Assembly: GCA_902790215.1 (NCBI GenBank)
Contig: CADAQX010000014.1
Coordinates: 1-49,574, forward strand
Direction of reading: 5' to 3'
DNA length: 49,574 nucleotides
Source: an uncultured Bacteroidota bacterium
GTDB taxonomy: Bacteria; Bacteroidota; Bacteroidia; Bacteroidales; P3
Part shown: positions 5,383-19,124 of the stretch, in pieces
Layout of the letters: every line of letters begins with the position of its first letter
Position numbering within the stretch: position 1 is the stretch's first letter
The notes under the pieces: generated by a model
What the model saw: the letters and a program-made list of their open reading frames with translations, nothing else
Told to the model about the DNA's origin: nothing
Database searches by the model: none
Program-made: the position numbers and the translations under genes

Positions 5383-8300
5383 CTATGCTAATATTTTATT
5401 GAAAAGGACATCGATATAGCTGCTGTCAGTTTGGAAGATAATATGGTTGTCATAGAATTTCTCTTTTGTACCCCACCAGGTTAATTGGTTGTATGGAGTG
5501 TTGGAAATGATGTAACTGTCTAGGTTAATATCCTTATCTCCTAACAAGGGCTGCACTTCGGTCTTCAGCTGATTGTAGAGCTGTATCTTAGGGTCTTGCA
5601 GCCCTTTAAGGTTACGTATGCCCTTGGGGTCAATGAAGATTACGTGTTGCTTTTCTCCCTCGTTCACCCAAAGGATAAAGTCGGGATAGAATCCGCTGGA
5701 TTCAAAGAAACCTATTCCCTTGCGGCTCTCATTGCGTAGCAGATATAGTTCCTTGCCTTGCAAGGTGTCACCTTTATGCTCTTCGTAGTATTTACGAATG
5801 TCATTCACAAAAGTTATTTCTCCCACATTCAATGCCACAGGCGATATCTTCACCAAAGGCTCGTTGGTGTTTTCGTCGAGAAACAGTTTCTTGCCATTTG
5901 CATCTTTATCTTTCAGGCAAAGTATGGGGTAGAACAGATGACGGTCGAAGCGCATGGCATACATCCATTTGCCGTTGATTTGGAAATCGCTTTCCAGTTT
6001 TTCAGATTTGATGGCTTCTCTTAACTCATTCAGTTTCTCTATCCACTCTTTTTGGTCGTTGCGTACCTCTACGGTGTATTCTTCGAAGAAATTGGGGTCG
6101 TTGGGCGTCAGCCAAACAGTTTCTAAGTATTCTGACTCCCAACGGCTTTTGCTACGCTTGTAGGCTCTATCGATATAGGCTCGCAACAAGGCGATGGTGA
6201 TCTCTTCCCATCTTGTTACGTCGCGGCCATAATCGTGGAATTCCAGATCTGCTTTTTCAATGGATAGCTCGTACCATGTGGGCGACATCATCAACCTTTT
6301 CAGCAAATCCACATCGATTTCCATATTGTACCAGCTCCGCTCATTCTTCATCTGCTCTATGGCAAAGAAGATTCGGTTCCAGTCAAGCAGGCTGAGATGA
6401 GCAGGACTAAGTGTATACGTGCTGCTCTCTGCAGCGGTACTTGATTCACGCTGTCCTGTACTCCACATGGCTTCCACCTTGGGCAGCCAATCCACCTTCA
6501 CCATAATGTTGTCCTTCATCTCGTCCAAACGTACCGTTACTGCCTTCTTGAAGTCATACCCATCTTTCAACCTCACCACCTTCAGTTTCTTGTCGCCAAG
6601 CAGATTGACCGTCGGTATCTTTACCGTTGTGTAGCTCTCTTCGTTGGCCGGCAGCCCTTCATCTTCCAGATATTGGCGGAAGGTTTCCATATAGTCGGCT
6701 CTTACGCCGAAAATGTTCAGTGTCTCTATTTCCCGAAGGCCTTTGGGTATTGGGCCGGGATTGTAACTCCCGTCGAGAGCCGAACTGCGTTTCAGCGAGT
6801 AATTGAAACCCTTCAGTCGCACTCCGCGACCGAACAATTGGATGATTTCCGAGCCCTCGCTACGTCCCACGTTCATCAGGCCCATTGCCGACACGCGCCA
6901 GCTGCTCCAGCCCTCGCTGAATTTCTTGGAACCTATCAAAATGTTGATTGGCGAATCTTCTTCGTTGATGCGGCTGAACAACGATGATGTGCCGAATTCC
7001 TTTGTCTCACAATCCAATCCGTTGGCCTCGCACAACTTCACCAACGAGTCACTGTCACCCACATTGATCACCCCGAAATAGTCGGCATTGCCTATCCGAA
7101 GGCCAATCTCTTTGTCGCCTCCCTTCTGCTTGTCAATATGAAGCATTGCCCCCGCATTGCTGTGAAACAACTTCTCTATTACGTTGACGTATGCCTTTTG
7201 GGCAACGGCCTCCTCTTCTCCAATCTTCATACCCTCCTTTATCTTCATAAAACTGTTGGCAAACAGCGAGTATCCACGTGGATTCTTGATGCCGTCTTCC
7301 GGATTCAACAAGCGCCTAATGTATCCCGTGAACTCCTGCTGTCTATCGACAAAGGCTTGAAGGAATAGCAGTATCTGCACAACATCGCTCACCTCCAATC
7401 CCCTGACTTTTCTCACCGCATTCACCGAGCCGCCCACAAAGATGCCCAGCGGTCGCGCTATCAGGAAACGGTTCTTCACCAATGGCGAGGACTCATACAC
7501 CAGCGTCTGCTCGTATAGACTGAGCAGGTAGGCGGTCAGGTACATGTTCAGCAGTTCTTCGTCGTCCCACGTGGCCATATTCATGATACGGTAGTCCTTG
7601 CCGTAGCCATCATTGTAGAAATAACGGTAGCTGTAGTCAAACAGCGTGGCCTTTCCATATTCTCGCAGCAAGGAGTCTCTATTGGCACCTGTCTGTGCGG
7701 CAATGGCCTGCCCAAAGGTGGCAGAGTATTCAAACGAGAAGCCTTCCTGCGTCAGTGTGTTGCGATAGCTTTTCCACACCTCGCCTCCGCTGCCTTTGTG
7801 GCCCTCGTCCACCAGCACCAGGTTGTTGCCTTCGAAACTCTCTACAGCCACCGTTTTGTCGCCGTCTGCATCAGCCAGCTTGTTGATGTCTATCACTTCG
7901 ATGTTGGTGCCAGTCATAAACCCCCCACGTCCATACTTGTTGAACAGCATGGCACTGAAATTAGACTCATTCAGCTCTTTCAAGTGCTGCGCTGAGAGGC
8001 CTTCATTGGGAGTCAGTATTAGTATGCGGTTCAGCTTCTTCGCGTGGTGTTTCTCCGCGTAGTATTGGTACTGCTTGATGTTGATGTGCATCATCAGCGT
8101 CTTTCCTGAGCCTGTGGCGCACCAAAAGGCCAGCTTGTTCAGGTCGTCGTCAGTGAAATCCGGCATCCCGTTCCAAGTCTCAGTGCGCATATTGAAGTCG
8201 TTGTGCAGGAAGATGTTGATGTCCTCCAACAGCGCTTTGCGGTCGCTGAAGTATCGGTCGAGGTATATCTCCGTGAACAGCAGCGCCAGATACTGGTAGT

Positions 8301-8601
8301 ACTTCCATTGTATCTTCTCTGCACGCCGCTCGTTGATCTCGCGAGTGTGGCGCACGATGTTTTGGTCATAGTCATAGAGTTCCTTCTCTGTGACGTAATA
8401 ACCCACATACAGATGCCCCTTCAGCGCATAGTAGATGTTCGAGGTACCCTCGTCGTCCACCCCTTCCAATGCGGGGTCTTTCAGGTCGCGGCTCAACGCC
8501 TCAAGGTCATTGCACCCCAAGAGACGCAGGATGTATTTGTGCAGCACCAGCGCCTCTTGCAGGCGCGCAGGCCGTCTGGTCGTAGTTCTTCCTCTTGGCA
8601 T
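5383..8601 (-). CDS. Res-like DEAD/DEAH helicase with C-terminal PD-(D/E)XK nuclease (type III-like restriction subunit)
   Basis: 1072 residues, third gene of the operon. Walker A CATGSGKTLM lies at residues 161-170, motif II is DEGH at 265-268, motif III is SATFG at 293-297 and motif VI is QLFGRGVRLKG near 605-615, the superfamily 2 pattern of type III Res subunits. Near the C-terminus, PDF at 973-975 followed by IDPKG at 990-994 gives a PD...DxK nuclease site typical of type III restriction enzymes. Predicted role: ATP-dependent translocation and cleavage of unmodified DNA together with the methyltransferase encoded just upstream. Only 3 bp separate its ATG (8601) from the methyltransferase stop, so translation is probably coupled. 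The frame is intact. Whether cleavage needs the SNF2 partner is unknown. Confidence 0.9.
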   Translation of the reverse strand: MPRGRTTTRRPARLQEALVLHKYILRLLGCNDLEALSRDLKDPALEGVDDEGTSNIYYALKGHLYVGYYVTEKELYDYDQNIVRHTREINERRAEKIQWKYYQYLALLFTEIYLDRYFSDRKALLEDINIFLHNDFNMRTETWNGMPDFTDDDLNKLAFWCATGSGKTLMMHINIKQYQYYAEKHHAKKLNRILILTPNEGLSAQHLKELNESNFSAMLFNKYGRGGFMTGTNIEVIDINKLADADGDKTVAVESFEGNNLVLVDEGHKGSGGEVWKSYRNTLTQEGFSFEYSATFGQAIAAQTGANRDSLLREYGKATLFDYSYRYFYNDGYGKDYRIMNMATWDDEELLNMYLTAYLLSLYEQTLVYESSPLVKNRFLIARPLGIFVGGSVNAVRKVRGLEVSDVVQILLFLQAFVDRQQEFTGYIRRLLNPEDGIKNPRGYSLFANSFMKIKEGMKIGEEEAVAQKAYVNVIEKLFHSNAGAMLHIDKQKGGDKEIGLRIGNADYFGVINVGDSDSLVKLCEANGLDCETKEFGTSSLFSRINEEDSPINILIGSKKFSEGWSSWRVSAMGLMNVGRSEGSEIIQLFGRGVRLKGFNYSLKRSSALDGSYNPGPIPKGLREIETLNIFGVRADYMETFRQYLEDEGLPANEESYTTVKIPTVNLLGDKKLKVVRLKDGYDFKKAVTVRLDEMKDNIMVKVDWLPKVEAMWSTGQRESSTAAESSTYTLSPAHLSLLDWNRIFFAIEQMKNERSWYNMEIDVDLLKRLMMSPTWYELSIEKADLEFHDYGRDVTRWEEITIALLRAYIDRAYKRSKSRWESEYLETVWLTPNDPNFFEEYTVEVRNDQKEWIEKLNELREAIKSEKLESDFQINGKWMYAMRFDRHLFYPILCLKDKDANGKKLFLDENTNEPLVKISPVALNVGEITFVNDIRKYYEEHKGDTLQGKELYLLRNESRKGIGFFESSGFYPDFILWVNEGEKQHVIFIDPKGIRNLKGLQDPKIQLYNQLKTEVQPLLGDKDINLDSYIISNTPYNQLTWWGTKEKFYDNHIIFQTDSSYIDVLFNKILA

Positions 8602-8604
8602 GGC

Positions 8605-11600
8605 TTACTCCTCCTCAAACATACGTTTCGCAAACTCTTCTTCCGTCAGCACCACCTTCCAATGCTCCTCGTCGCGGCGCATATTGGGCAGCGTGTTGTC
8701 ACCGTTCACGTAGATGACGTCAAATTCCGTATCGCGGGTGCGGATATCCATCTTGTCGAAGAACGCGCAGAGCTTTTCGTTGTCAACCTCCTTGCAGTTG
8801 CGCCAGATGACCAGCGTCTTCAATCCATCGCGATGGGTCTTGCCCTGCACCACGCAGATGTTGTCGTCCAGATGCCAATCTTCCGTCTCCACATTCAGGC
8901 CTATCAGGTAGTTGAAGGTCTCCACCATATCCACCTTTGTTTCTACCAATTCGTTGTCCTTGGTGGTCTTCAGCGTCATCGCAAAGGGATTCTCAAACCA
9001 TTTCAGATTCAGCAACGAGTCGCGTGTCTCTGTGTCGAGCAGATAGCTGAGCATATAGCTCTCCTGGAATTCCTTCGACTGGAACTCCAACTGTTGCTTC
9101 TTGATTTCAAGGTTATTCAGCGTATCCTCGTATTGCTCTAAGCGGATGTATTTTAAGCATTGGGAAATGCCGTTGCGGGAAACAGGTTTGCCATTTTTCC
9201 ATTCAGAAGAATAAATAGCCTTTACTACACGAGTTTTTGTTGCAACATCAAAGTAGTTATTTACTTCTACAAGACAAAATTTTCTGTTTTTTTTATCGGC
9301 TCTATTCATCTCAATTACCGCATGCCCTGTTGTACCTGAACCTGCGAAATAATCAATAACCATTGCATTTTCACCAATATTTAATACTTTCAAACTATCT
9401 ATTACGGCATATAAGGACTTGGGATAAGAAAACACATTTTCAGTACCAAATAACCCCTTAATTAGATTTGCCCCATTAGAAGTTGAAGAATACTCACTTT
9501 TATCCCAAATAGTAAGTGGAAGTATTCCTTTATCATTTAATCTGGATTTAATATACACAGCCAACTTCCCCGTTCTGTCGTAACGAATTTTCATATTAGA
9601 TATCTCAGATAGTGCCCTTTCTAATCCCCACTTCCATCTTCTTGGAGTCCCTTCTTCATCAATTGGATATAGTACAGTTTCGTCAGCATTACAAGGTTCC
9701 AAAATCTCATATTCGCCAATTTCACTATTCCAATTCATCTTAGGAATTCTAACTGTTGATTCTGTAATATAGAGTGGATAATACATTGTTGGAGCATCTT
9801 CTTTCCAGCCGCCATGCTTTCTGAAATTGACCCATTCAAATTGACCATCTTCATCTTGCTCACCATATCTATCATTTTGTTCTTGTGTCCTTTCCAATCT
9901 ACCAATTTTAGTGTCTTCGTCTTTAGAACAAAATATTGCATATTCATGGGCAATAGAGAAACCAGATTCTGTAGAACGTCCAGATGGGTTATTTTTAATC
10001 GCAACAGTTCCTCTTATATTATATTCTCCATATAATTGCTGAATAATGTAATATAATTCATGCAATTGAAAATCATCAATAGTTACACATGAAAGACCGT
10101 CAATTGCAAGGAGTTTTTTCCCTGCAGAAACCCTATCGGCAATCATTGATGACCAAGAACTCTTTTTATAACTATTCTTGTATACGATTTCACTTGCCGA
10201 AGTGTTATATGGCGGGTCAATGTATATTCCATTCACTTTATTTCTATATTTTTCCAGCAGCAATTCTAACGCCTGGAAATTTTCGCTATTAATCAGCAAT
10301 CCATTCGTCTGCTCATCTACATTTTCCATACTCTTTACCAATTGGTGCTTGAACTTAGTCCCAAAGAAAGCGGTATCAAGAACAAGGAACGGATTCTGCT
10401 TCAAGAATTCTATGGTCAGAGGCTCACTATAGGATTCTGTCACAATATCGCCTTTAATCTCATCGATGGCAAACAGGCGTACCCATTCCTTGCGCTGGTC
10501 GTCATTGGCAATAATCTCTGGGTAGAGTTTCTCGGGCACACGGTCGAGGGTGATGCAATAGTCGCTCTGCACCACAAATTTCTTCTTCAGCCACAGTTTC
10601 TTCTGGAAGTTCTCCAGCTGCGCCAGCATCTGGATAATCTTCTGCCCTACCTGCTTGATGGCTTTCACTATGGCCAGCTGACTATTGATGTGCTGCGGGT
10701 CGAGGTCGTCGATATGCAGCACTTCGTTCTTGATATAGAAGTCTAACTCGCGGCTGAGGAATCCACCCAGGTCTTTATGTATGAAGTAGTCGAACGAGTT
10801 CTTGGCTGTATAATCCGTCAGGTGTTTCTCCAGCAGGGTGCGGTCGGCATTGTCCTTGGTGGGCATCTTTACCGTGAGCAGTTCTCCGAAGTCGGCAGAA
10901 ACCTGTGGCACAATGGCCTCCATCGCCTTGCTCATCAGGTCTTTCTGCTTGGTGGCCTTTGGCATCAGTTCGTAGGTGAAATAGATATTCAAATCACCCT
11001 CAGTAGTTACTTCAACCACGTGTTCGCCCTCATTCTCGGGTTCCCAAAGTGCAAACCGACGTTCCATATTGTTTGCTGCCTTGTTGTTGTTTTGCTCCGT
11101 AGTGGCATCCTTCAGCACGAAATGCACCTTTCGCCTTGAGGTGGGCAGCACAAAGGTATAGTCGCGGAAATATTCCGAGGTCTTGATGTAATATTGGTCG
11201 CTGTTGGCCCAATGCAGCTTCACCTCCTCGCCGTTGTAGGGGATGGCGTAGGTGTTGTCCTTGTAGCGTCGCTTGGATATAAAATCGCCACCATCGTAAT
11301 AGCGGCTGAAGAACGTCACCAGATGCGAGAATACCTCCCCCTCCATATCTTCTGCGCTGCCACCTTGCGCCACCAGCGCTTTCAGCTTTTTGTATTCAGC
11401 CACGTTAGGATTTGAGTCTGGCAACGTATCTATATCCATACCTGCAAACATCTGCTCAATCTCTGCCATACGCTGTTTGGCTTGCTGTGCATTACCACCA
11501 TCGCCCTGCAGGGCAATCTTTACCTGTGGCAGTAAATCAACTTGTAGAAAGCGATTAATCTCGTCGCGTTTCTGGTTCATGATGCGGTAGATGCCGAAGT

Positions 11601-11673
11601 CAAGCTCAGCATGATCCATCATAAAGATTTCTTGCAGCTTCTCTATGAATTTTCTGTAGTAATCGGTTGCCAT
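8605..11673 (-). CDS. Site-specific DNA methyltransferase (beta-class, DPPY; type III Mod-like)
   Basis: Second gene of the operon. Motif IV IDPPYNTSASEIVY lies near residue 485, and motif I DYFAGSGTTGHAV comes much later, the order of beta-class amino-methyltransferases such as type III Mod (N6-adenine or N4-cytosine). About 450 residues precede motif IV, far longer than usual Mod N-termini. I chose ATG 11673 (MATDYYRKF, 1022 aa), 13 bp after the helicase stop. A TTG at 11694 would add seven residues and overlap the helicase by 8 bp. Bases about 9170-10440, covering the catalytic and presumed target-recognition region, are visibly more AT-rich than the flanks, which suggests domain exchange. 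It likely protects self DNA and gives the system its sequence specificity. Confidence 0.9.
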   Translation of the reverse strand: MATDYYRKFIEKLQEIFMMDHAELDFGIYRIMNQKRDEINRFLQVDLLPQVKIALQGDGGNAQQAKQRMAEIEQMFAGMDIDTLPDSNPNVAEYKKLKALVAQGGSAEDMEGEVFSHLVTFFSRYYDGGDFISKRRYKDNTYAIPYNGEEVKLHWANSDQYYIKTSEYFRDYTFVLPTSRRKVHFVLKDATTEQNNNKAANNMERRFALWEPENEGEHVVEVTTEGDLNIYFTYELMPKATKQKDLMSKAMEAIVPQVSADFGELLTVKMPTKDNADRTLLEKHLTDYTAKNSFDYFIHKDLGGFLSRELDFYIKNEVLHIDDLDPQHINSQLAIVKAIKQVGQKIIQMLAQLENFQKKLWLKKKFVVQSDYCITLDRVPEKLYPEIIANDDQRKEWVRLFAIDEIKGDIVTESYSEPLTIEFLKQNPFLVLDTAFFGTKFKHQLVKSMENVDEQTNGLLINSENFQALELLLEKYRNKVNGIYIDPPYNTSASEIVYKNSYKKSSWSSMIADRVSAGKKLLAIDGLSCVTIDDFQLHELYYIIQQLYGEYNIRGTVAIKNNPSGRSTESGFSIAHEYAIFCSKDEDTKIGRLERTQEQNDRYGEQDEDGQFEWVNFRKHGGWKEDAPTMYYPLYITESTVRIPKMNWNSEIGEYEILEPCNADETVLYPIDEEGTPRRWKWGLERALSEISNMKIRYDRTGKLAVYIKSRLNDKGILPLTIWDKSEYSSTSNGANLIKGLFGTENVFSYPKSLYAVIDSLKVLNIGENAMVIDYFAGSGTTGHAVIEMNRADKKNRKFCLVEVNNYFDVATKTRVVKAIYSSEWKNGKPVSRNGISQCLKYIRLEQYEDTLNNLEIKKQQLEFQSKEFQESYMLSYLLDTETRDSLLNLKWFENPFAMTLKTTKDNELVETKVDMVETFNYLIGLNVETEDWHLDDNICVVQGKTHRDGLKTLVIWRNCKEVDNEKLCAFFDKMDIRTRDTEFDVIYVNGDNTLPNMRRDEEHWKVVLTEEEFAKRMFEEE

Positions 11674-11686
11674 ATTTTTTTGTGTT

Positions 11687-14506
11687 TTAATCAATAGTGA
11701 ATCGTATGGTGAACAGATCCTGGCTTTTGGTGTTCTGTATCATACGTTTTTCCAAATCCCTTATCATCGTCTTTCGCTGTTCGCTGACTTCATCCTCACG
11801 CTCCTCCAATTCGTTGCGCAAACGGCGACGCTTGCGCTTCAGCTCCTCCACCTTCTTTTCGAGAGTCAGCTTCTCGGCTACGGTTTGGGCATTCCGCGCA
11901 TCACGCTCCGCTCGGAGTATTTCGTTGCGAATCGACTTTATCTCTACCTCAAGGCTGTCAACCATATCATGTTCCCAGGCGAAGATACGGTCCTCTTCCT
12001 GCTTGAAGTAGGTGGTGTTGCGGCTGTCAATCTCGCGCAGGGTGGCGGTGGCGTGCTGCTGCTGGTTGGATTGCAGTTTCTGCTGAACCTCCGATGTGAG
12101 ATTTTGGGGTGACTCCATCGTTGCCATCAGGAGCATCAATCGTTCGCATTGCTCCTGTGTAAGAAATCGACCATCATCGGTGAAGGCTGTGAAGAGAAGA
12201 TGCTGCTCTTCGTCGAGGGAATCGACTTGCAGACACGAAAGCAACATCCAGCCGGAACGATAGCGCAGGTCGTCGGGCAGCTGGACATTCAGGCGAGTGG
12301 TTGAGGGAGAGAACCGGAGTGTGCCTGTGGAATCAAAAGGGATTGTGAGGGCTTCGTTCAACACATGTTGAGCCAGCGGGTGCGACAACCGATAGGCTAT
12401 GCCATCGCCCTGCTGAGAGAAGAGACGATAGAGACCCGACGGAGAGCCTGCCATAGGCTTCTTCAGCATGAAAGTATGCTGCTCGTCGTTAAAGGTGGCA
12501 TCAGCATGCAGTACATATTTTGTCAGTTCCCAGAAGATATACTCATAGCGATTGAGGAAAAGGCCTGTGGTGTCGTGCGTCATACGCAGATGCTCCTGCA
12601 CATCGATGTCGAAGTTCTCCAACACTTCGTGGCGGACGCTGTCCATACGCTCGTCGATTTCTGCTTGCATATCGGCTTGCAGACGGCTGAAGGCGACCTT
12701 AATCTCGGCTTCCGTTCGGCATTGCTGATAAATGTCGTAGATGCGGCTCTCTATGTCGAGCGAGTCAACACGACCCAGCACCTCGTCGCTGGCTCCAAAC
12801 ACGTCGTCGAAGAGATGGAACTTGTCGGAGAGTAGGTTGAATACTCGCACATCGGCAAAGTTGCGGGTATTGATGAAGTTGACCACCACCACATCGTGTT
12901 TCTGTCCGTAACGGTGGCAGCGACCTATACGCTGCTCTATGCGCTGCGGATTCCAAGGCAGGTCGTAATTCACCACGAGTGAGCAGAACTGCAGGTTGAG
13001 GCCTTCTGCAGCAGCCTCAGTGGCAATCATTATGTCGGCTTGGTGTTCGAAATAATCCACCACAGCGGCTCTTCTATCGGCCGTCTTCACACCGCTAACT
13101 CGATCGGGATGAAGTCGGCACCAGCGGTTGTATATCTCAGTCGTCTGTGGGTCGGTTGCACGGCCGTTGAAGATGACAAGACGGCCGGCATAGCCATGCG
13201 CTTCGAGGAAATGTACCAGATAAGCTTGTGTCCGGGTGCTCTCAGTAAAAATAATTGCTTTGCGAGGTGCACCCTCTACGGCTTGCTGCTTAAAGGCTTT
13301 GGTTAGTGCTTTGAGCAAAGCATCGCTTTTGCTGTCGTGGTCGATGCCACGCGCCATCTCGATGAAACGTTCTATCTGTGTAATCTCCGCTTTGAGTTTG
13401 ACAGGATTCACCTCCTCGTTATCGTCCACAACATCTTCGTCCAACAACTCTTCGGGTTCATACAGTTCTGTCTCTTCGGCAGCGATGTCAACCAATTCTT
13501 CGGGGTTGAGACGTTCCACCTGCAATGTTTTGAGCATCCGCTGCAAGCGCTGGCGAATATGGGTGAGGGTGAAGATGAGTGCGTAAGTTGATGAGGCCAG
13601 AATCTTGCGGATAATCATGGTCGTCAGCTTTCGCTGCTGGGATGGAATAGAATAGATGTCGTCGCGACGTAGGAATTCCGACAACTCGCTATAGAGCTGC
13701 TGTTCAATATCGGTGGCTTGGAATTTCTGCGTCAGCGCATGACGATTGGTATAGTTGATGTATTCCCGCACATCGCGCCGCAGGGTGCGCGTGAATAGTG
13801 GCGCTATGCGGCGACGCAATTCTGGCAGTTCATCCCCTTTGCCATAGGTGGCACGGAACGATTTCTCGCTGCCGAAAAGCTGCGGGTTGATGATGCTGAC
13901 AAGACCATAAAGCTCCATCAGCGAGTTCTGAAACGGTGTGGCGGTAAGCAGTAATTTTTTCGAGCCGCTAAGTGCATCGCTCACAGCAATGGCGGTCTTC
14001 GCGCTGCTGCGGTAAACATTGCGTAGTTTGTGTGCCTCATCGACCACCGCCAGTTCGAAACCCTGACGGAGTATGTCCACTTTGTAGCGGGCTACGAAAT
14101 TGTAGGAGCAAATGACAATACACCGTTTGCCAAAGCCTACCTGACGATAGTTACGGCTGTCAACGATGATGTTGGGCAAGCCGAATTTGTCAGTCAGCTC
14201 GGCACTCCACTGCTTTCGGAGTGCAGCAGGGCAGACTATAATGATATTGCGTTTGCCCGCTGCCCAATACTGACCTATAACTAAACCAGCCTCGATGGTC
14301 TTTCCCAAGCCCACCTCGTCGGCAAGGACAACGCCTTTCGACAATGGGGAACGGAAGGCAAAAAGAGCCGCCTCTACCTGATGGGGATTGATGTCAACAG
14401 CAGCACTGAGCAAAGATTGAGAAAGACTTTCCAATCTGTCGCCCACTGAACGCGAAGTGAGCAGCTGAGCGTAGTATTTGGCTTGTTGTGGAGTAATTAT
14501 GGGCAT
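11687..14506 (-). CDS. SNF2/HepA-like helicase of the restriction operon
   Basis: 939 residues, first gene of the operon. LADEVGLGKTIEAGL (61-75) is the SNF2/RapA-type Walker A, AVVDEAHKLRN (153-163) motif II, LLTATPFQNS (186-195) motif III, and NYDLPWNPQRIEQRIGRCHR the SNF2 motifs V-VI. The C-terminal 130 residues are a charged coiled coil with runs such as KKVEELKRKRRRLRNELEER. Related helicases occur as DrmD in class 1 DISARM and in helicase-methylase-ATPase style defence operons; neither the DrmA/B/C proteins nor BREX proteins are present here. Probable role: a translocase acting with the Mod and Res proteins. The start MPIITPQQAKYYAQLL at 14506 is preceded by a long structured leader. 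Confidence 0.88.
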   Translation of the reverse strand: MPIITPQQAKYYAQLLTSRSVGDRLESLSQSLLSAAVDINPHQVEAALFAFRSPLSKGVVLADEVGLGKTIEAGLVIGQYWAAGKRNIIIVCPAALRKQWSAELTDKFGLPNIIVDSRNYRQVGFGKRCIVICSYNFVARYKVDILRQGFELAVVDEAHKLRNVYRSSAKTAIAVSDALSGSKKLLLTATPFQNSLMELYGLVSIINPQLFGSEKSFRATYGKGDELPELRRRIAPLFTRTLRRDVREYINYTNRHALTQKFQATDIEQQLYSELSEFLRRDDIYSIPSQQRKLTTMIIRKILASSTYALIFTLTHIRQRLQRMLKTLQVERLNPEELVDIAAEETELYEPEELLDEDVVDDNEEVNPVKLKAEITQIERFIEMARGIDHDSKSDALLKALTKAFKQQAVEGAPRKAIIFTESTRTQAYLVHFLEAHGYAGRLVIFNGRATDPQTTEIYNRWCRLHPDRVSGVKTADRRAAVVDYFEHQADIMIATEAAAEGLNLQFCSLVVNYDLPWNPQRIEQRIGRCHRYGQKHDVVVVNFINTRNFADVRVFNLLSDKFHLFDDVFGASDEVLGRVDSLDIESRIYDIYQQCRTEAEIKVAFSRLQADMQAEIDERMDSVRHEVLENFDIDVQEHLRMTHDTTGLFLNRYEYIFWELTKYVLHADATFNDEQHTFMLKKPMAGSPSGLYRLFSQQGDGIAYRLSHPLAQHVLNEALTIPFDSTGTLRFSPSTTRLNVQLPDDLRYRSGWMLLSCLQVDSLDEEQHLLFTAFTDDGRFLTQEQCERLMLLMATMESPQNLTSEVQQKLQSNQQQHATATLREIDSRNTTYFKQEEDRIFAWEHDMVDSLEVEIKSIRNEILRAERDARNAQTVAEKLTLEKKVEELKRKRRRLRNELEEREDEVSEQRKTMIRDLEKRMIQNTKSQDLFTIRFTID

Positions 14507-14531
14507 AAAGAATCGCGGAACTTTGCTTACG

Positions 14532-14640
14532 ACCTTTTAGGTGTTCCACGACCCATACATCAGATAAGTAAAGCCCGCGATTTCTCGCAGGCGTTTACTG
14601 CTTTACTCTGATGTATTTGAATTGTGGAACTTCAAAAGGT
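14532..14640 (-). promoter_or_regulatory. Large structured leader (candidate regulatory RNA) of the restriction operon
   Basis: A nested inverted repeat of about 109 bp between the operon promoter (14754) and start codon (14506). Pairs on the plus strand: ACCTTTT 14532-14538 with AAAAGGT 14634-14640; GTTCCAC 14543-14549 with GTGGAAC 14624-14630; ATACATCAGA 14555-14564 with TCTGATGTAT 14607-14616; then an inner hairpin from GTAAAGCC with GCGA-TTTC-TCGC at its tip and GGC-TTTAC. CCGCGATT in the tip (14575-14582) is exactly complementary to AATCGCGG at 14511-14518, five bases upstream of the ATG. This arrangement suggests translational or transcriptional control. A palindromic mobile element remnant is an alternative. 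Confidence 0.7.
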
Positions 14641-14753
14641 ACAGTTAGAGCGTAAACGCTATGTGTATTTTAAACTATTTTAATACTATATATCTGTTTT
14701 TTAATTACTTGTTTTATTGTGTTATTATTCTTCTTTCCTATCAAAATCAAGTG

Positions 14754-14761
14754 CAAATATA
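14754..14761 (-). promoter_or_regulatory. -7 promoter element of the helicase-Mod-Res operon
   Basis: TATATTTG on the minus strand, 248 bp upstream of the helicase start, giving a leader of about 240 nt that includes the hairpin at 14532-14640. No better TAnnTTTG match lies closer to the gene. Confidence 0.6.
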
Positions 14762-14915: not shown

Positions 14916-15057
14916 TCGTGCTACACGCTACAGTGCTACAGTTCGGGTTTGGCGACAACCGCATCAGGAAAAAGCAAAAAAACTGTCAACCAAAAACAGG
15001 AAAAGACACTATCGTCAGTCGGATGCTGACCGTTACGCGTTACAGTGTAACAGTTCG
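14916..15057 (+). repeat. Two-unit repeat A block at the upstream edge of the restriction operon
   Basis: C-type unit at about 14916-14945 and T-type unit at 15028-15057, separated by a spacer that matches that of 5227-5291 for about 63 bp (CGACAACCGCATCAGG, AACTGTCAACCAAA, AGGAAAAGACA). Direct orientation relative to the block at 5197. The downstream end GGGTTTGGGCTTTGCGG is shared with the copy at 18259. The rest of 14762-15143 shows no gene. Confidence 0.85.
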
Positions 15058-15143
15058 GGTTTGGGCTTTGCGGAGCAGCGGGGGAACGGGGGCAGCTTGG
15101 TACTCTTGCCGATGGTAATCATGTCCTCATTGGTAGGCTGGCA

Positions 15144-15365
15144 CTACTTTATTGCCCCTGTCTTCAATTCGCTGTCGAGGAAGGAAAAGACATAGCGGGG
15201 ACTTTGGTAGTAAAGACGTGTACGGTCGTCAAGCAGACGCTGGTAGGTGTCAGAATTAATCACGATAGAAAGAGCCTGCTCCATCGAGAGACTTGGCTCT
15301 CTTTCCATTAATAGCAAGGCAAGATTCTTTACCATGTCGATGGTCATTTGGTCACGTTCGCTCAT
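15144..15365 (-). CDS. Hypothetical 73-aa protein, third gene of the DUF3791-DUF3990 cassette
   Basis: Starts MSERDQMTIDMVKNLALLLM and overlaps the DUF3990 stop by 4 bp (ATGA), so it belongs to the same operon. Predicted mostly helical, with a central MEQALSIVINSDTYQRLLDD stretch that resembles the short helical DUF3791-type partner proteins. No catalytic motif. It could be an antitoxin-like or accessory partner of the DUF3990 protein; this is inferred from position only. Confidence 0.75.
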   Translation of the reverse strand: MSERDQMTIDMVKNLALLLMEREPSLSMEQALSIVINSDTYQRLLDDRTRLYYQSPRYVFSFLDSELKTGAIK

Positions 15366-15835
15366 ATTCGTCTCAATAGTTTTATGGCACGTTCTGTGCC
15401 GAAAAAATACTGGATGGTAATGCCTTTCATATAGCGCAAATTATGGACTAGCGTCGGGAGGTCGATAATCTGTGTCTCGTAACGCCATAGTTGTACGCCT
15501 ACGCGGTCATTAGCGATGGGACCAATGACGATGTCGTAGTCGTGGGCAGGTGCCAAAGCAGGGTTATTACGATTGAGGATAATGAATTTTGCCCACTCCT
15601 CGCTGTATGAATCAAAACGAAGCACTCTCATTTCTCCCATGTGCGTTTCATCCACTTCGTATTCTATCACAGTAGGTTTGCCAGTTCCTAATTGGTCAAC
15701 TTTAGTAGATGCCATTTCCATGGCTTGGTTGTAATCGGCTGAGAGGTAGAACCCTCTTCCAAAATCCTTGTTGGGTTTCGAACGAGATAGGTCAATCTCA
15801 CTAAATGCCATATTTGTGCCGTGATATAGAATCAT
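15362..15835 (-). CDS. DUF3990 family protein, ADP-ribosyltransferase-like fold
   Basis: 157 residues. The N-terminus has LYHGTN and then DFGRGFYLSADYNQAMEMA, the H...Y arrangement seen in ART-fold proteins and diagnostic of DUF3990. An acidic residue from the third ART position is not certain by eye. DUF3990 genes commonly follow DUF3791 genes in gut Firmicutes and Bacteroidota, in compact cassettes that look like toxin-antitoxin pairs, but the activity is not established to my knowledge. It overlaps both neighbours by 4 bp: the DUF3791 stop upstream and the 73-aa gene start downstream. Inference: possible nucleic acid or protein ADP-ribosylating toxin or effector. Confidence 0.82.
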   Translation of the reverse strand: MILYHGTNMAFSEIDLSRSKPNKDFGRGFYLSADYNQAMEMASTKVDQLGTGKPTVIEYEVDETHMGEMRVLRFDSYSEEWAKFIILNRNNPALAPAHDYDIVIGPIANDRVGVQLWRYETQIIDLPTLVHNLRYMKGITIQYFFGTERAIKLLRRI

Positions 15836-16056
15836 ACAAGTTCCCCTCCTTTCCGATGGCAGTACTCGCTAATGTCATCTATCATCGACTGGAACGATTG
15901 AGTGTGCACATAGCCATAATGTCTGTCGATAAAGTCAATGCCTTGATAACGGCTCAAATAATTGAATGCCTGCTTCAAGGTAAGCCCAAACTGCTGACCA
16001 AAGGCACTGACAAATATTAGCGTCCACTCTATTTTGTCTTGATTGCTATATCCCAT
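15832..16056 (-). CDS. DUF3791 family protein (candidate antitoxin-like partner)
   Basis: 74 residues, MGYSNQDKIEWTLIFVSAFG onward, with LTLKQAFNYLSRYQGIDFI and HYGYVHTQS in the middle. The layout fits DUF3791: a helical protein with a conserved aromatic pair, always near DUF3990. First gene of the three-gene cassette, only about 15-20 nt downstream of the predicted transcription start. The role as antitoxin is inferred from gene order (upstream, small, overlapping by ATGA). Confidence 0.8.
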   Translation of the reverse strand: MGYSNQDKIEWTLIFVSAFGQQFGLTLKQAFNYLSRYQGIDFIDRHYGYVHTQSFQSMIDDISEYCHRKGGELV

Positions 16057-16194: not shown

Positions 16195-17274
16195 TTATTG
16201 TTTGACGGCGGTCTTTACCTCGTCAATTATCTGGAGGCAGCGGGGACGGGACATCTTGGTGTTGGTGCCGACGGCGATGAGGTCTTCATCGGTGGGGAGG
16301 CCACGGAAGTTGACGGTGGTGGCGTGTTCGCTGAGGCTCCGGTCGTTGGTGAGGTCGTAGGCGGGTGCGAGTTCCCAGTGACCGTCACGGAAAAGGAAAC
16401 TGAAGTTGCGTGCGTGGTCGTCGTAATTGTGGGCATAGTGGTTGAAGACCATGCGCCGGAACTGCTGTTCTACTGCCTCGGGCGACTGGGTAAGGTAACC
16501 TGTCAGCTGCAACAGGCTATGGTAGTCCATCTTAGGCGGTGTTATGGGCTCGTTGAGCAGTCCGCTGGCGGTGACCATGTGGAGGCGGTTGCCTTGCCCG
16601 TCGATGTCGAAACGTCGCGTGGCGAAATATTTGCCTTCCATCAACCGGAACTCCGGCACGACAATCCCCGCTTGCTGTGCCAATTCGTTGTAGTGGTATT
16701 CCTGCTGTCCGATATCCATAGGATCAAAGGTGTGGCGGAACTTGACAAGCCAATGTCCATCGGCATCATTGTAGAGGCATTTGGGACGTACACCCCCGGA
16801 GTTCCCGCTACTAGCGAGCAACATTTCCGCACCGCTGTCGGTACGCTCTGAAAGCACTTCGATGGCAACAGCCTGCATCTCGTCGAGCGTCAAATTAGAA
16901 GGATTGCCGCCGACTTTGCTTTCCGGCACATAGCACAATGCTCCCATGCCGGAACTGCCAACGAGACTCAGCCGCTGCACGGGCGTTAGACTTTCATAGT
17001 CAACGCCCTCACGCCGCATTACCTTGCGGAGCAAGTACTCTCCATATCCTCCAGGAAGACTATCCTCAAAGATGCCGAAATTGCCGTTGAAAGGTTGCCA
17101 CTTGGCAGAGAACAGACCCGCTTTCAAGGGCAGATGTAAGGGCGAGATGGAGAATCCGTCGCGTAGCCAGTATGAGTCATATTCGAACTGGCAGCACGAG
17201 TGGTTTCCCATAGTCAAGGTACCCACCCTTTGGCCGTGATACATCACACTGACACACATTATATTCTTAATCAT
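16195..17274 (-). CDS. hipA: HipA family Ser/Thr kinase toxin
   Basis: 359 residues. The N-terminal subdomain contains SPLHLPL and LPGGYGEYLL, and residues 105-115 read VGSSGMGALCY, as in HipA_N. The kinase part has a Gly-rich loop SSGNSGGVRPK (155-165), a Lys in WLVKFRH, the catalytic loop HNYDDHARNFSF (282-293) and the metal-binding AYDLT (305-309), so it looks catalytically intact. Known HipA toxins phosphorylate aminoacyl-tRNA synthetases such as GltX and induce dormancy. Shorter than E. coli HipA (440 aa) but fused in one chain, unlike split HipST. Its start overlaps the hipB stop by 4 bp, giving the usual antitoxin-first order. Confidence 0.9.
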   Translation of the reverse strand: MIKNIMCVSVMYHGQRVGTLTMGNHSCCQFEYDSYWLRDGFSISPLHLPLKAGLFSAKWQPFNGNFGIFEDSLPGGYGEYLLRKVMRREGVDYESLTPVQRLSLVGSSGMGALCYVPESKVGGNPSNLTLDEMQAVAIEVLSERTDSGAEMLLASSGNSGGVRPKCLYNDADGHWLVKFRHTFDPMDIGQQEYHYNELAQQAGIVVPEFRLMEGKYFATRRFDIDGQGNRLHMVTASGLLNEPITPPKMDYHSLLQLTGYLTQSPEAVEQQFRRMVFNHYAHNYDDHARNFSFLFRDGHWELAPAYDLTNDRSLSEHATTVNFRGLPTDEDLIAVGTNTKMSRPRCLQIIDEVKTAVKQ

Positions 17275-17582
17275 ACGCCTCGCTTTCTGTTTTTGTTTTT
17301 GTTAATCTCCAACAGTTCTTCCATCGTGTCGTATTTGGGTTCGGCAAGCAACTGCATCAGCTCTTCGGAATAGCCGAGGGCTTTTGCCAACTTGACATAC
17401 GACTCAAGCGAGATAGAGTGCTTCAACTCGAACCGCTGTATGGTGGCTGCCGGCACACCACTCAAGGCCGACAGACTCTTAGTGGAGAGCTTTTTTTCCA
17501 GCCTTCGAGCCTTTAGATTCTCGGCCATCCGTTGCATTGTGACAGGCAAAGGATATGGGTCAAATATATATCCGTTGTGCAT
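17271..17582 (-). CDS. hipB: HipB-like XRE family antitoxin
   Basis: 103 residues. The helix-turn-helix spans about residues 20-65, with LSTKSLSALSGVPAATIQRF and SLESYVKLAKALGY, the Cro/C1-type pattern. The basic tail NKNKNRKRGV may insert in the toxin or bind DNA. Expected to neutralise HipA and repress its own promoter; palindromic sites around the start codon and promoter support autoregulation. Overlaps hipA by 4 bp. Confidence 0.88.
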   Translation of the reverse strand: MHNGYIFDPYPLPVTMQRMAENLKARRLEKKLSTKSLSALSGVPAATIQRFELKHSISLESYVKLAKALGYSEELMQLLAEPKYDTMEELLEINKNKNRKRGV

Positions 17583-18123: not shown

Positions 18124-18258
18124 CTACATATTATCATATAATGAGCATTACCTTGGTAATGATTAATTCCGAATAATTGGAGGTTGCCAAATGTATTATT
18201 TTTCCAAGCGAATATGTCAGCCCAAAAAAGGGAAAGTCACCATTGTCAGTTGGACACC

Positions 18259-18288
18259 GACCGCTACGCGCTACAGTGCTACAGTTCG
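18259..18288 (+). repeat. 30-bp intergenic repeat A, C-type unit
   Basis: GACCGCTACGCGCTACAGTG then CTACAGTTCG, followed by GGTTTGGGCTTTGCGG exactly as after the unit at 15028. Preceded by TTGTCAGTTGGACACC, similar to the TCGTCAGTCGGATGCT before the 15028 unit, so the conserved element is longer than 30 bp here (about 18226-18305). Confidence 0.85.
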
Positions 18289-18356
18289 GGTTTGGGCTTT
18301 GCGGTGCTGGGTGAGGGACTGGGGCTGGTGGGAATACCTGCCGGAAAAGCCTGAAG

Positions 18357-19124
18357 CTACAGGCGGAAGAGGGATTGGGCGGAGGCGGTGGTGACGGCAG
18401 CGACTTCTTCCACACTGGTGCCGCGCACTTCGGCTATCTTGGCGGCAATAATGGGGATGTAGGCGCTCTCGTTGCGCTTGCCTCTATAAGGCACAGGGGC
18501 GAGGTAGGGGGCATCGGTCTCGAGTAAGATGCGCTCCAGAGGCACCGCAGCGGCCACCGCAGCCAGCGTGGCGTTCTTGAAGGTCACCACACCGCCTATG
18601 CCGATATGGAAACCCATCTCAACAGCGCGGTGCGCCTCCTGCACACTGCCGCCGAAGCAGTGCATCACCCCGCTGAAGGTGCCGAAATTCAAGTCGCGCA
18701 GCAGGCCGAAGAGCTCGTTATACGCCTTGCGCACATGCAGACACACAGGCAGTCCCAAGTCCCGCGCCCAAAGCATCTGCCTCTTCAGCACTTCGCGCTG
18801 CTGCTCGTAGTAGGTCTTGTCCCAATACAAATCAAGTCCTATCTCCCCCACCCCGACATAACCGGCCGCAGGGCTGAACAACTTCTCCTGCACAATGGCC
18901 AGTTCGGGTTCGAAGTCATCCGTCACCGAGGTGGGGTGCAGCCCCATCATCTGACGGAAATACTGTGGGTATTCGGCGGCCAAAGCCTCCTGACGGCTAT
19001 GGGAGGCGCTGTCGATGCCGGGCAGCAGCATGGTGTCCACCCCTGCGGCAACAGCCCGCTGCACCGCCTCGCGGCGGTCAACGTCGAAAGCTTCGTCATA
19101 GAGATGGCAATGCGTGTCAACCAT
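18357..19124 (-). CDS. TatD family metal-dependent hydrolase/DNase
   Basis: 255 residues, standard for TatD/YcfH. MVDTHCHLYDEAF holds the first metal-binding His pair, GEIGLDLYW the conserved Glu, HVRKAY and MHCFGGS the next ligands, and ETDAPYLAPVPYRGKRNES the C-terminal Asp signature. The family includes 3'-5' exonucleases involved in DNA repair and turnover; the exact substrate here is unknown. Overlaps the DUF2520 gene by 8 bp and is the last gene of a three-gene operon. Confidence 0.93.
   Translation of the reverse strand: MVDTHCHLYDEAFDVDRREAVQRAVAAGVDTMLLPGIDSASHSRQEALAAEYPQYFRQMMGLHPTSVTDDFEPELAIVQEKLFSPAAGYVGVGEIGLDLYWDKTYYEQQREVLKRQMLWARDLGLPVCLHVRKAYNELFGLLRDLNFGTFSGVMHCFGGSVQEAHRAVEMGFHIGIGGVVTFKNATLAAVAAAVPLERILLETDAPYLAPVPYRGKRNESAYIPIIAAKIAEVRGTSVEEVAAVTTASAQSLFRL

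Follow-up and report, generated by a model that had tools for sequence, protein, structure and literature searches.

A candidate family of cis-acting leader RNAs in Bacteroidota predicted to form two exclusive folds

The restriction operon of an uncultured Bacteroidota bacterium (Bacteroidales; P3) is preceded by a structured RNA that probably belongs to a Bacteroidota-wide family of cis-acting leaders. On balance we favor a reading in which these leaders adopt one of two exclusive folds and act through attenuation, occlusion of the start site, or both, and are not specific to restriction systems. The operon lies in the window, the whole stretch of DNA analyzed (49,574 nucleotides of contig CADAQX010000014.1, assembly GCA_902790215.1).

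The leader of the restriction operon

The operon is encoded on the minus strand. Its first gene (11687..14506) encodes an SNF2 helicase with a best match to the DrmD model, and the genes downstream have profile matches to a type III methyltransferase (Mod; 8605..11694) and a type III restriction subunit (Res; 5383..8601). The leader RNA (14507..14747, minus strand) lies between the ATG and a Bacteroidetes-type -7 promoter box, TATATTTG (14754..14761, minus strand), which was identified by its sequence and by enrichment of the motif in the family. We take TAnnTTTG to be the consensus of this box. The 5′ end of the leader is placed from the box, giving an expected length of ~240 nt.

The first-pass annotation had proposed a structured leader here, and the computed stability agrees. 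Positions 14507-14660 (minus strand) fold at -57.2 kcal/mol, compared with -33.5 +/- 3.7 for 200 dinucleotide shuffles (z = -6.4; 0/200 as stable). The leader scores 133.5 bits (E 4.7e-23) at 14502-14660 against the family covariance model, in whose alignment the window sequence itself is included.

All parts of the leader are on the minus strand. A mini-hairpin, P1 (AGCGUUUACGCU; AGCG-TAAA-CGCT), occurs at 14649..14660, one base away from where it was first annotated; it is a family feature predicted from the fold and from moderate covariation over distinct combinations. In the window fold, the P2 5′ strand ACCUUUU (14634..14640) pairs with the 3′ strand AAAAGGU (14532..14538), which is also supported by family covariation, and the P3 5′ strand GUUCCAC (14624..14630) pairs with 14543-14549. 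The latter positions are part of the P3 3′ strand and its flank, GGGUCGUGGAAC (14543..14554). P4 is a variable stem (5′ strand 14608..14615, 3′ strand 14556..14563) identified by the window fold and family covariation. Two of the pairs proposed at first, 14532/14640 and 14543/14630, are the ends of two ~7-bp helices; a third, 14555/14616, is only close to the inner helix.

The hairpin ends in a tip, CUGCGA-GAAA-UCGCGG, whose 5′ strand (segment 1, GUAAACGCCUGCGA, 14585..14598) was predicted from the window fold and family covariation, and whose 3′ strand (segment 2, UCGCGGGCUUUAC, 14568..14580) can pair, based on covariation, with segment 1 or with a pre-start segment (segment 3, GUUCCGCGAUU, 14511..14521). 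Segment 3, identified by sequence and covariation, is followed by a T-rich tract that reaches into the ATG (CUUUAUG, 14504..14510) and corresponds to the T-tract of the family. In the window leader this tract is interrupted (CUUUAU). The P1 sequence GCGUU is able to pair with AACGC of the tip 5′ strand (segment 0), and the P3 5′ strand resembles part of the pre-start segment.

There are two candidate partners for the pre-start segment. The 8-mer at 14575-14582 (RNA AAUCGCGG) is, as had been noticed, an exact reverse complement of 14511-14518 (RNA CCGCGAUU), and it is partly buried, being made up of the tip hairpin 3′ strand and two loop bases. We rejected a loop-only reading of this 8-mer, which is mainly tip-stem 3′ strand. 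A lone exact 8-mer match is weak evidence (~5% by chance for a leader of this size), and it is its conservation that counts. A stronger partner, missed at first, is 14543-14554 (RNA GGGUCGUGGAAC), which can form 12 bp with 14510-14521, including three G-U pairs.

The two folds that result, A (tip hairpin closed) and B (pre-start segment captured), have nearly equal computed energies in the window (-63.6 and -62.4 kcal/mol). In fold B, the 12-bp stem 14543-14554/14510-14521 ends at the T-rich tract and the ATG. A nested pairing of the tip 3′ strand with segment 3, when forced, gives -52.1 rather than -63.6 kcal/mol, a cost of ~11 kcal/mol, so that in the window fold B plausibly uses the P3 3′ strand instead. 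Fold B was absent from a terminator scan of the window region that permits loops of 3-8 nt only; the scan reported only the tip hairpin.

Other features occur near the leader. Adjoining it, at 15144-16056 (minus strand), are an unknown 73 amino acid ORF and genes for a DUF3990 protein, whose weak match to ADP-ribosyltransferase falls below the cut-off, and a DUF3791 protein; the two DUF neighbors look toxin-antitoxin-like. A HipA-like protein beside a short HTH protein, a HipBA-type pair, is encoded at 16195-17582 (minus strand). There is a 31-nt direct repeat (87% identity) at 14922-15064 (plus strand), and in the region of ~18190-18400 a similar repeat can be read at the peptide level (near 18191-18394); this may be a dispersed repeat.

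Distribution of the RNA family

The genome contains further copies. BLAST found a second copy with 77% identity, placed immediately 5′ of the ATG of a different operon. The genes of that operon have matches to MmeI/Eco57I-type methyltransferases and to a ResIII helicase. A pre-start base that differs in this copy is compensated in the tip. This is the one strong further copy found by BLAST, and the remaining copies were detected by covariance model only. We built two such models, R1 from 28 members and the broader R2 from 100 aligned matches; their E-values are rough. R2 has 17 matches in the window's genome, 16 at E < 0.006 and one (E 0.58) on the opposite strand of one copy; up to 16 places in the genome are therefore candidate copies, the weaker ones by model score.

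BLAST matches were found in 48 of 190 family genomes. R1 matches 140 of 189 family genomes, in 12/12 genera, and in the wider phylum 5 of 395 genomes, the window's own included. R2 extends this range to 58 of 392 phylum genomes (28 of 183 genera).

The exact tip pattern is present in at least 120 stretches of GTDB contigs; 109 of those listed match the model at E <= 0.1, some weakly. Titles among the matches listed include Prevotellaceae, Paludibacteraceae, Alistipes, Rikenella, Odoribacter, Tannerella, Flavobacteriales, Chitinophagales, and other Bacteroidota; six titles belong to different phyla, and one reads "uncultured bacterium". We did not accept as members the non-Bacteroidota stretches (L141, L145, L147, L176, L188, and L195) or five others (L101, L124, L161, L203, and L205), none of which matches the model at E <= 0.1. 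The pattern occurs in four stretches of viral contigs, with a model match in one, IMGVR_UViG_3300001686_000010 (L214). This is a 42.9-bit family member before an ORF for a small secreted protein, and it may be a bacterial stretch.

Two groups have features of their own. In genus g7 and its relatives (L074, L075, L156, and L163) the highest number of copies per genome is at least 15, and the copies have similar flanks and different stems; in L074 and L075 the T-tract is followed by ATGCC and an immediate stop codon. In the distant genus g21 (L219-L239, 13 loci aligned) there are further conserved stretches after the T-tract, and many copies occur before SusC-like genes.

Covariation of the common structure

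A covariance check on relatives had been suggested with the first annotation, and it found both covarying pairs and a conserved pre-start complementarity. Over 100 sequences, the common structure of 45 pairs has 92.8% of cells paired (66.5% in shuffled alignments), 1160 double changes (357 shuffled), and a covariation of 0.690 (0.203 shuffled, at most 0.082 when slid; 0/500 shuffles reach it). This alignment was fitted to the 45-pair structure, and the counts lean towards it. Both sides change at all six modelled pairs of P2 across the family, and 98.4% of cells are paired in P3 (helix 3). The RNA thus appears to have the conserved structure with covariation that is characteristic of cis-regulatory leaders.

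There is moderate support in the sequences for a pairing of P1 with the tip. The 5′ GCGUU and the tip AACGC form 3.48 Watson-Crick pairs of 5, compared with 3.20 in permutations (z 2.5; 113/10000 as high), based on 27 distinct combinations with 27 of 199 elements unparsable. By inspection, we noticed that the flanks of P3 (GAAA/UUUC and AGGU/ACCU) suggest a kissing-loop geometry.

Competition for the tip 3′ strand

The helix between segments 2 and 3, which lies outside the model, is 87.1% paired (81.0% shuffled) with a covariation of 0.279 (0.179 shuffled; 0/500 for both measures). Two of five measures are not above shuffles, these being double changes (141/500) and further pair types (124/500). 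We read the key base pair of this helix directly in 148 members, the set that remains of 164 after removal of 6 with no recognizable tip and 10 of the other 158 with no segment-3 motif. In this set, which was not dereplicated and in which some loci with G handles are contigs of named records, the key pair is Watson-Crick in 120 and G-U in 11, and it is not paired in 17. All four types are well represented (U-A 39, C-G 32, G-C 33, A-U 16). After dereplication at 80% identity, there are 60 Watson-Crick and 8 G-U pairs among 75 members, where base composition predicts 19.6 Watson-Crick pairs. Among 35 validation loci, 26 were parsed, with 23 Watson-Crick and 2 G-U pairs; nearly all are G-C and add little covariation.

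The same tip 3′ base covaries with the tip 5′ strand. It covaries, therefore, with two partners, and pairings 1:2 and 2:3 would compete.

Directly after segment 3, a T-tract with at least 6 T in 10 nt is found in 144 of the 148 members (not dereplicated). When scored as the best of four 8-nt windows with at least 6 T, it is again found in 144 of 148, compared with 3.8% of random windows from the same loci. The helices are predicted to be exclusive and one of them is followed by a U-tract, which is the arrangement of a terminator-type attenuator. Outside the R-M subset, fold B has by inspection a loop of ~70 nt, which is unusual for an intrinsic terminator.

Segment 3 may also pair downstream. 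With its own downstream 85 nt it gives -7.4 kcal/mol, compared with -6.1 when these are swapped (z -6.4; 0/10000; dereplicated n=75). Only some members show this pairing, 3:4, clearly: the native sequence ranks among the best 10% of swaps for 18 of 75 members, with 7.5 expected.

The R-M subset and the start codon

An aligned set of 31 members (L002, L009-L038), assigned by reading, includes four before DrmD-type operons, 21 at the start of MTase operons (some with a decayed gene), and six others. In the R-M subset the P3 3′ strand is a further possible partner of the pre-start segment, and the RNAalifold consensus for 31 sequences contains this pairing. At the start of MTase operons, the P4 3′ strand pairs with the ATG and the next codons, in sequences that differ between genomes, and this strand covaries with the start codon region. 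The start region gives -13.7 kcal/mol with its own leader and -9.5 with swapped ones in 18 distinct cases (z -6.6; 0/10000), a set from which six members with no start motif and repeats were dropped. The pairing is weaker in L011, L014, L016, L026, L027, and L033 (-0.9 to -10.6), and in the DrmD subset, to which the window belongs, pairing of the start codon is weak (-1.5, -3.0, and -4.5 kcal/mol). In L011, L016, L018, and L030, the MTase gene is truncated or frame-broken, yet the leader and ATG remain.

Proposed mechanism

In fold A, the tip hairpin would be closed (segment 1 with segment 2) and the P2-P3-P4 hairpin complete, with segment 3 free or, in some members, paired further downstream with a loop (segment 4). 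Fold B would have segment 3 captured by an upstream strand. Family-wide the capturing strand would be that at the 3′ side of the tip; members of the R-M subset, including the window, would have the P3 3′ strand as an additional one. Fold B would form a GC-rich stem followed by the U-tract, after which R-M members have the ATG, and expression would then be stopped by premature termination, by hiding of the start region, or by both. The pairings and their covariation, the T-tract, the promoter-like box, and the position in cis are seen in the sequences themselves. From these we infer that fold B lowers expression, that termination may be the controlled step, and that a signal or binding partner in the cell would select fold A or fold B.

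It is rather unlikely, in our view, that the RNA is mainly a translational switch or a static start element in which fold B merely hides the start region and there is no regulated termination. Initiation regions in Bacteroidota are A/U-rich and lack Shine-Dalgarno sequences, and under this explanation the T-tract is such a region. In its favor, the P4 3′ strand of the MTase subset covaries with the start codon and the codons next to it, and the window ATG comes right after the T-rich tract. Outside the R-M subset the gene starts are a median of 50 nt further on, yet the T-tract is kept in 144 of 148 members, where translational control alone does not require it.

Position relative to genes

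Among loci that fall outside the R-M subset and have sufficient sequence, 113 of 116 have the closest ORF downstream (at least 90 amino acids) on the same strand. It begins within 150 nt in 90 of these, and the median distance for the 113 is 50 nt. A predicted ORF overlaps the element in 12 of 117 cases. A TAnnTTTG box is present 15-130 nt upstream of 144 of 195 family elements, compared with 196 of 3532 control windows (5.5%). Neither the 113 of 116 nor the 144 of 195 was dereplicated. The same-strand gene and the promoter-like box, both features of the sequences, argue for a leader that acts in cis.

These features also bear on two further explanations. In one, the element encodes a small RNA that ends at its own terminator and acts in trans, and the gene downstream has separate transcription. 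An RNA of ~150-240 nt would indeed result from the promoter-like box and the T-tract. We regard this as improbable; it is opposed by the constant presence of a same-strand gene at short distance, the pairing of a segment beyond the T-tract with segment 3, and the covariation of the coding start with the leader in MTase operons. Least probable of all is that mobile or repetitive DNA (a MITE, REP, or integron-attC-like hairpin) lies near genes by chance, with repeat divergence accounting for its variable stems: the first-pass annotation would have taken occurrence at unrelated places as a sign of a mobile element, and there are indeed many such places and short shared flanks in the g7 copies, but orientation is locked to the downstream gene (113/116), a promoter-like box lies upstream, the stems diverge with compensation in all pair types, only one strong BLAST copy (77%) occurs in the window's own genome, and plasmid and phage collections have no blastn match to the window copy at E <= 0.01.

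Genes downstream of the leader

The window leader is not intrinsic to its operon family. A search with the first 302 residues of the helicase (E <= 1e-60, 189 family genomes) found 11 places in 8 genomes. The RNA is present at 4/4 helicase homologues with at least 91% identity (the window included; one is degenerate, 66 bits) and is missing (E <= 1) at 7/7 homologues with 49-70% identity, apart from an 18-bit match (E 0.29) in L257. With the RNA at four close DrmD homologues and missing at seven distant ones, the leader is therefore modular.

Nor is it specific to restriction operons, a possibility ruled out by the wide search, in which it heads unrelated genes. We scanned 105 of 123 candidate downstream genes, leaving out members of MTase operons and short or doubtful ORFs. 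The scan found seven BspA-type LRR proteins (Pfam), four PLD-like proteins, three tail-collar domains, two DNA methylases (type III by PADLOC), two T5orf172 proteins, and many singletons. Lipoproteins and proteins with signal peptides are frequent downstream, and SusC/TonB-like proteins occur in one distant genus (on a reading of the sequence alone). Defense genes are a minority in this wide sample, from which MTase-operon members had been left out. As a group, the genes are heterogeneous.

The first annotation had suggested a switch that restrains a potentially self-harming restriction system. The structural part is supported, as exclusive folds are predicted, one of which would capture a covarying segment before the ATG. 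The purpose is not supported; the same RNA heads genes for BspA-type LRR proteins, lipoproteins, and SusC/TonB-like proteins, and first-gene homologues with 49-70% identity occur with no RNA. We have dropped the idea of an operon-specific safety device, though the leader may still serve that end here.

Comparison with known systems

The family is apparently uncatalogued within Rfam 15 and the open-access literature. At the gathering threshold, Rfam 15 (4227 models) has no match in the window and finds only one unrelated tRNA at 15 member loci. With relaxed thresholds, there are four sub-threshold matches in the window stretch, the best of which (E 0.038) is to RybB on the other strand; on the leader strand a rimP leader scores 22.1 bits, where its gathering score is 47. 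The relaxed search of seven loci (six of them new) gave one L20 leader match, off the element. No description of the RNA was found in the open-access papers searched.

Mutually exclusive leader helices are known from transcription attenuators, including trp-type leaders, the T-box, and other riboswitch expression platforms. The family resembles these in having alternative pairings chained in a 5′ leader and a U-tract after one of them. It differs in that no leader peptide, tRNA, or metabolite link is visible, the downstream genes are functionally unrelated, and the captured strand belongs to the tip of a hairpin that is long and variable. Restriction-modification systems are known to be controlled by antisense RNA or by a C-protein. 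The leader would likewise control expression of an R-M operon, but as a generic RNA common to unrelated genes.

Weinberg et al. 2010 (PMC2864571) list Bacteroidetes motifs, including Bacteroidales-1, Flavo-1, GUCCY-hairpin, and others, which are, like the leader, candidate structured RNAs of this phylum. Of these motifs, the ones that have an Rfam model do not match the leader; GUCCY-hairpin is listed with no Rfam entry.

Implications for Bacteroidota

More tentatively, the family may represent an orphan regulatory RNA that spans the phylum. It could be a new class of riboswitch or protein-responsive antitermination element, in which the two strands of one tip hairpin are bound by the two ends of the RNA. 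One common signal could then gate accessory genes such as restriction systems, surface adhesins, and nutrient receptors. We put this broader proposal forward as a possibility that we do not yet favor.

If our reading is right, Rfam 15 lacks a large family of structured RNAs that heads accessory genes across Bacteroidota. A layer of control after initiation would be common to restriction systems, adhesins, and outer-membrane receptors, and it would offer an explanation, open to testing, of how these genes are quieted or switched. The RNA would be an orphan switch with a ligand or partner to seek.
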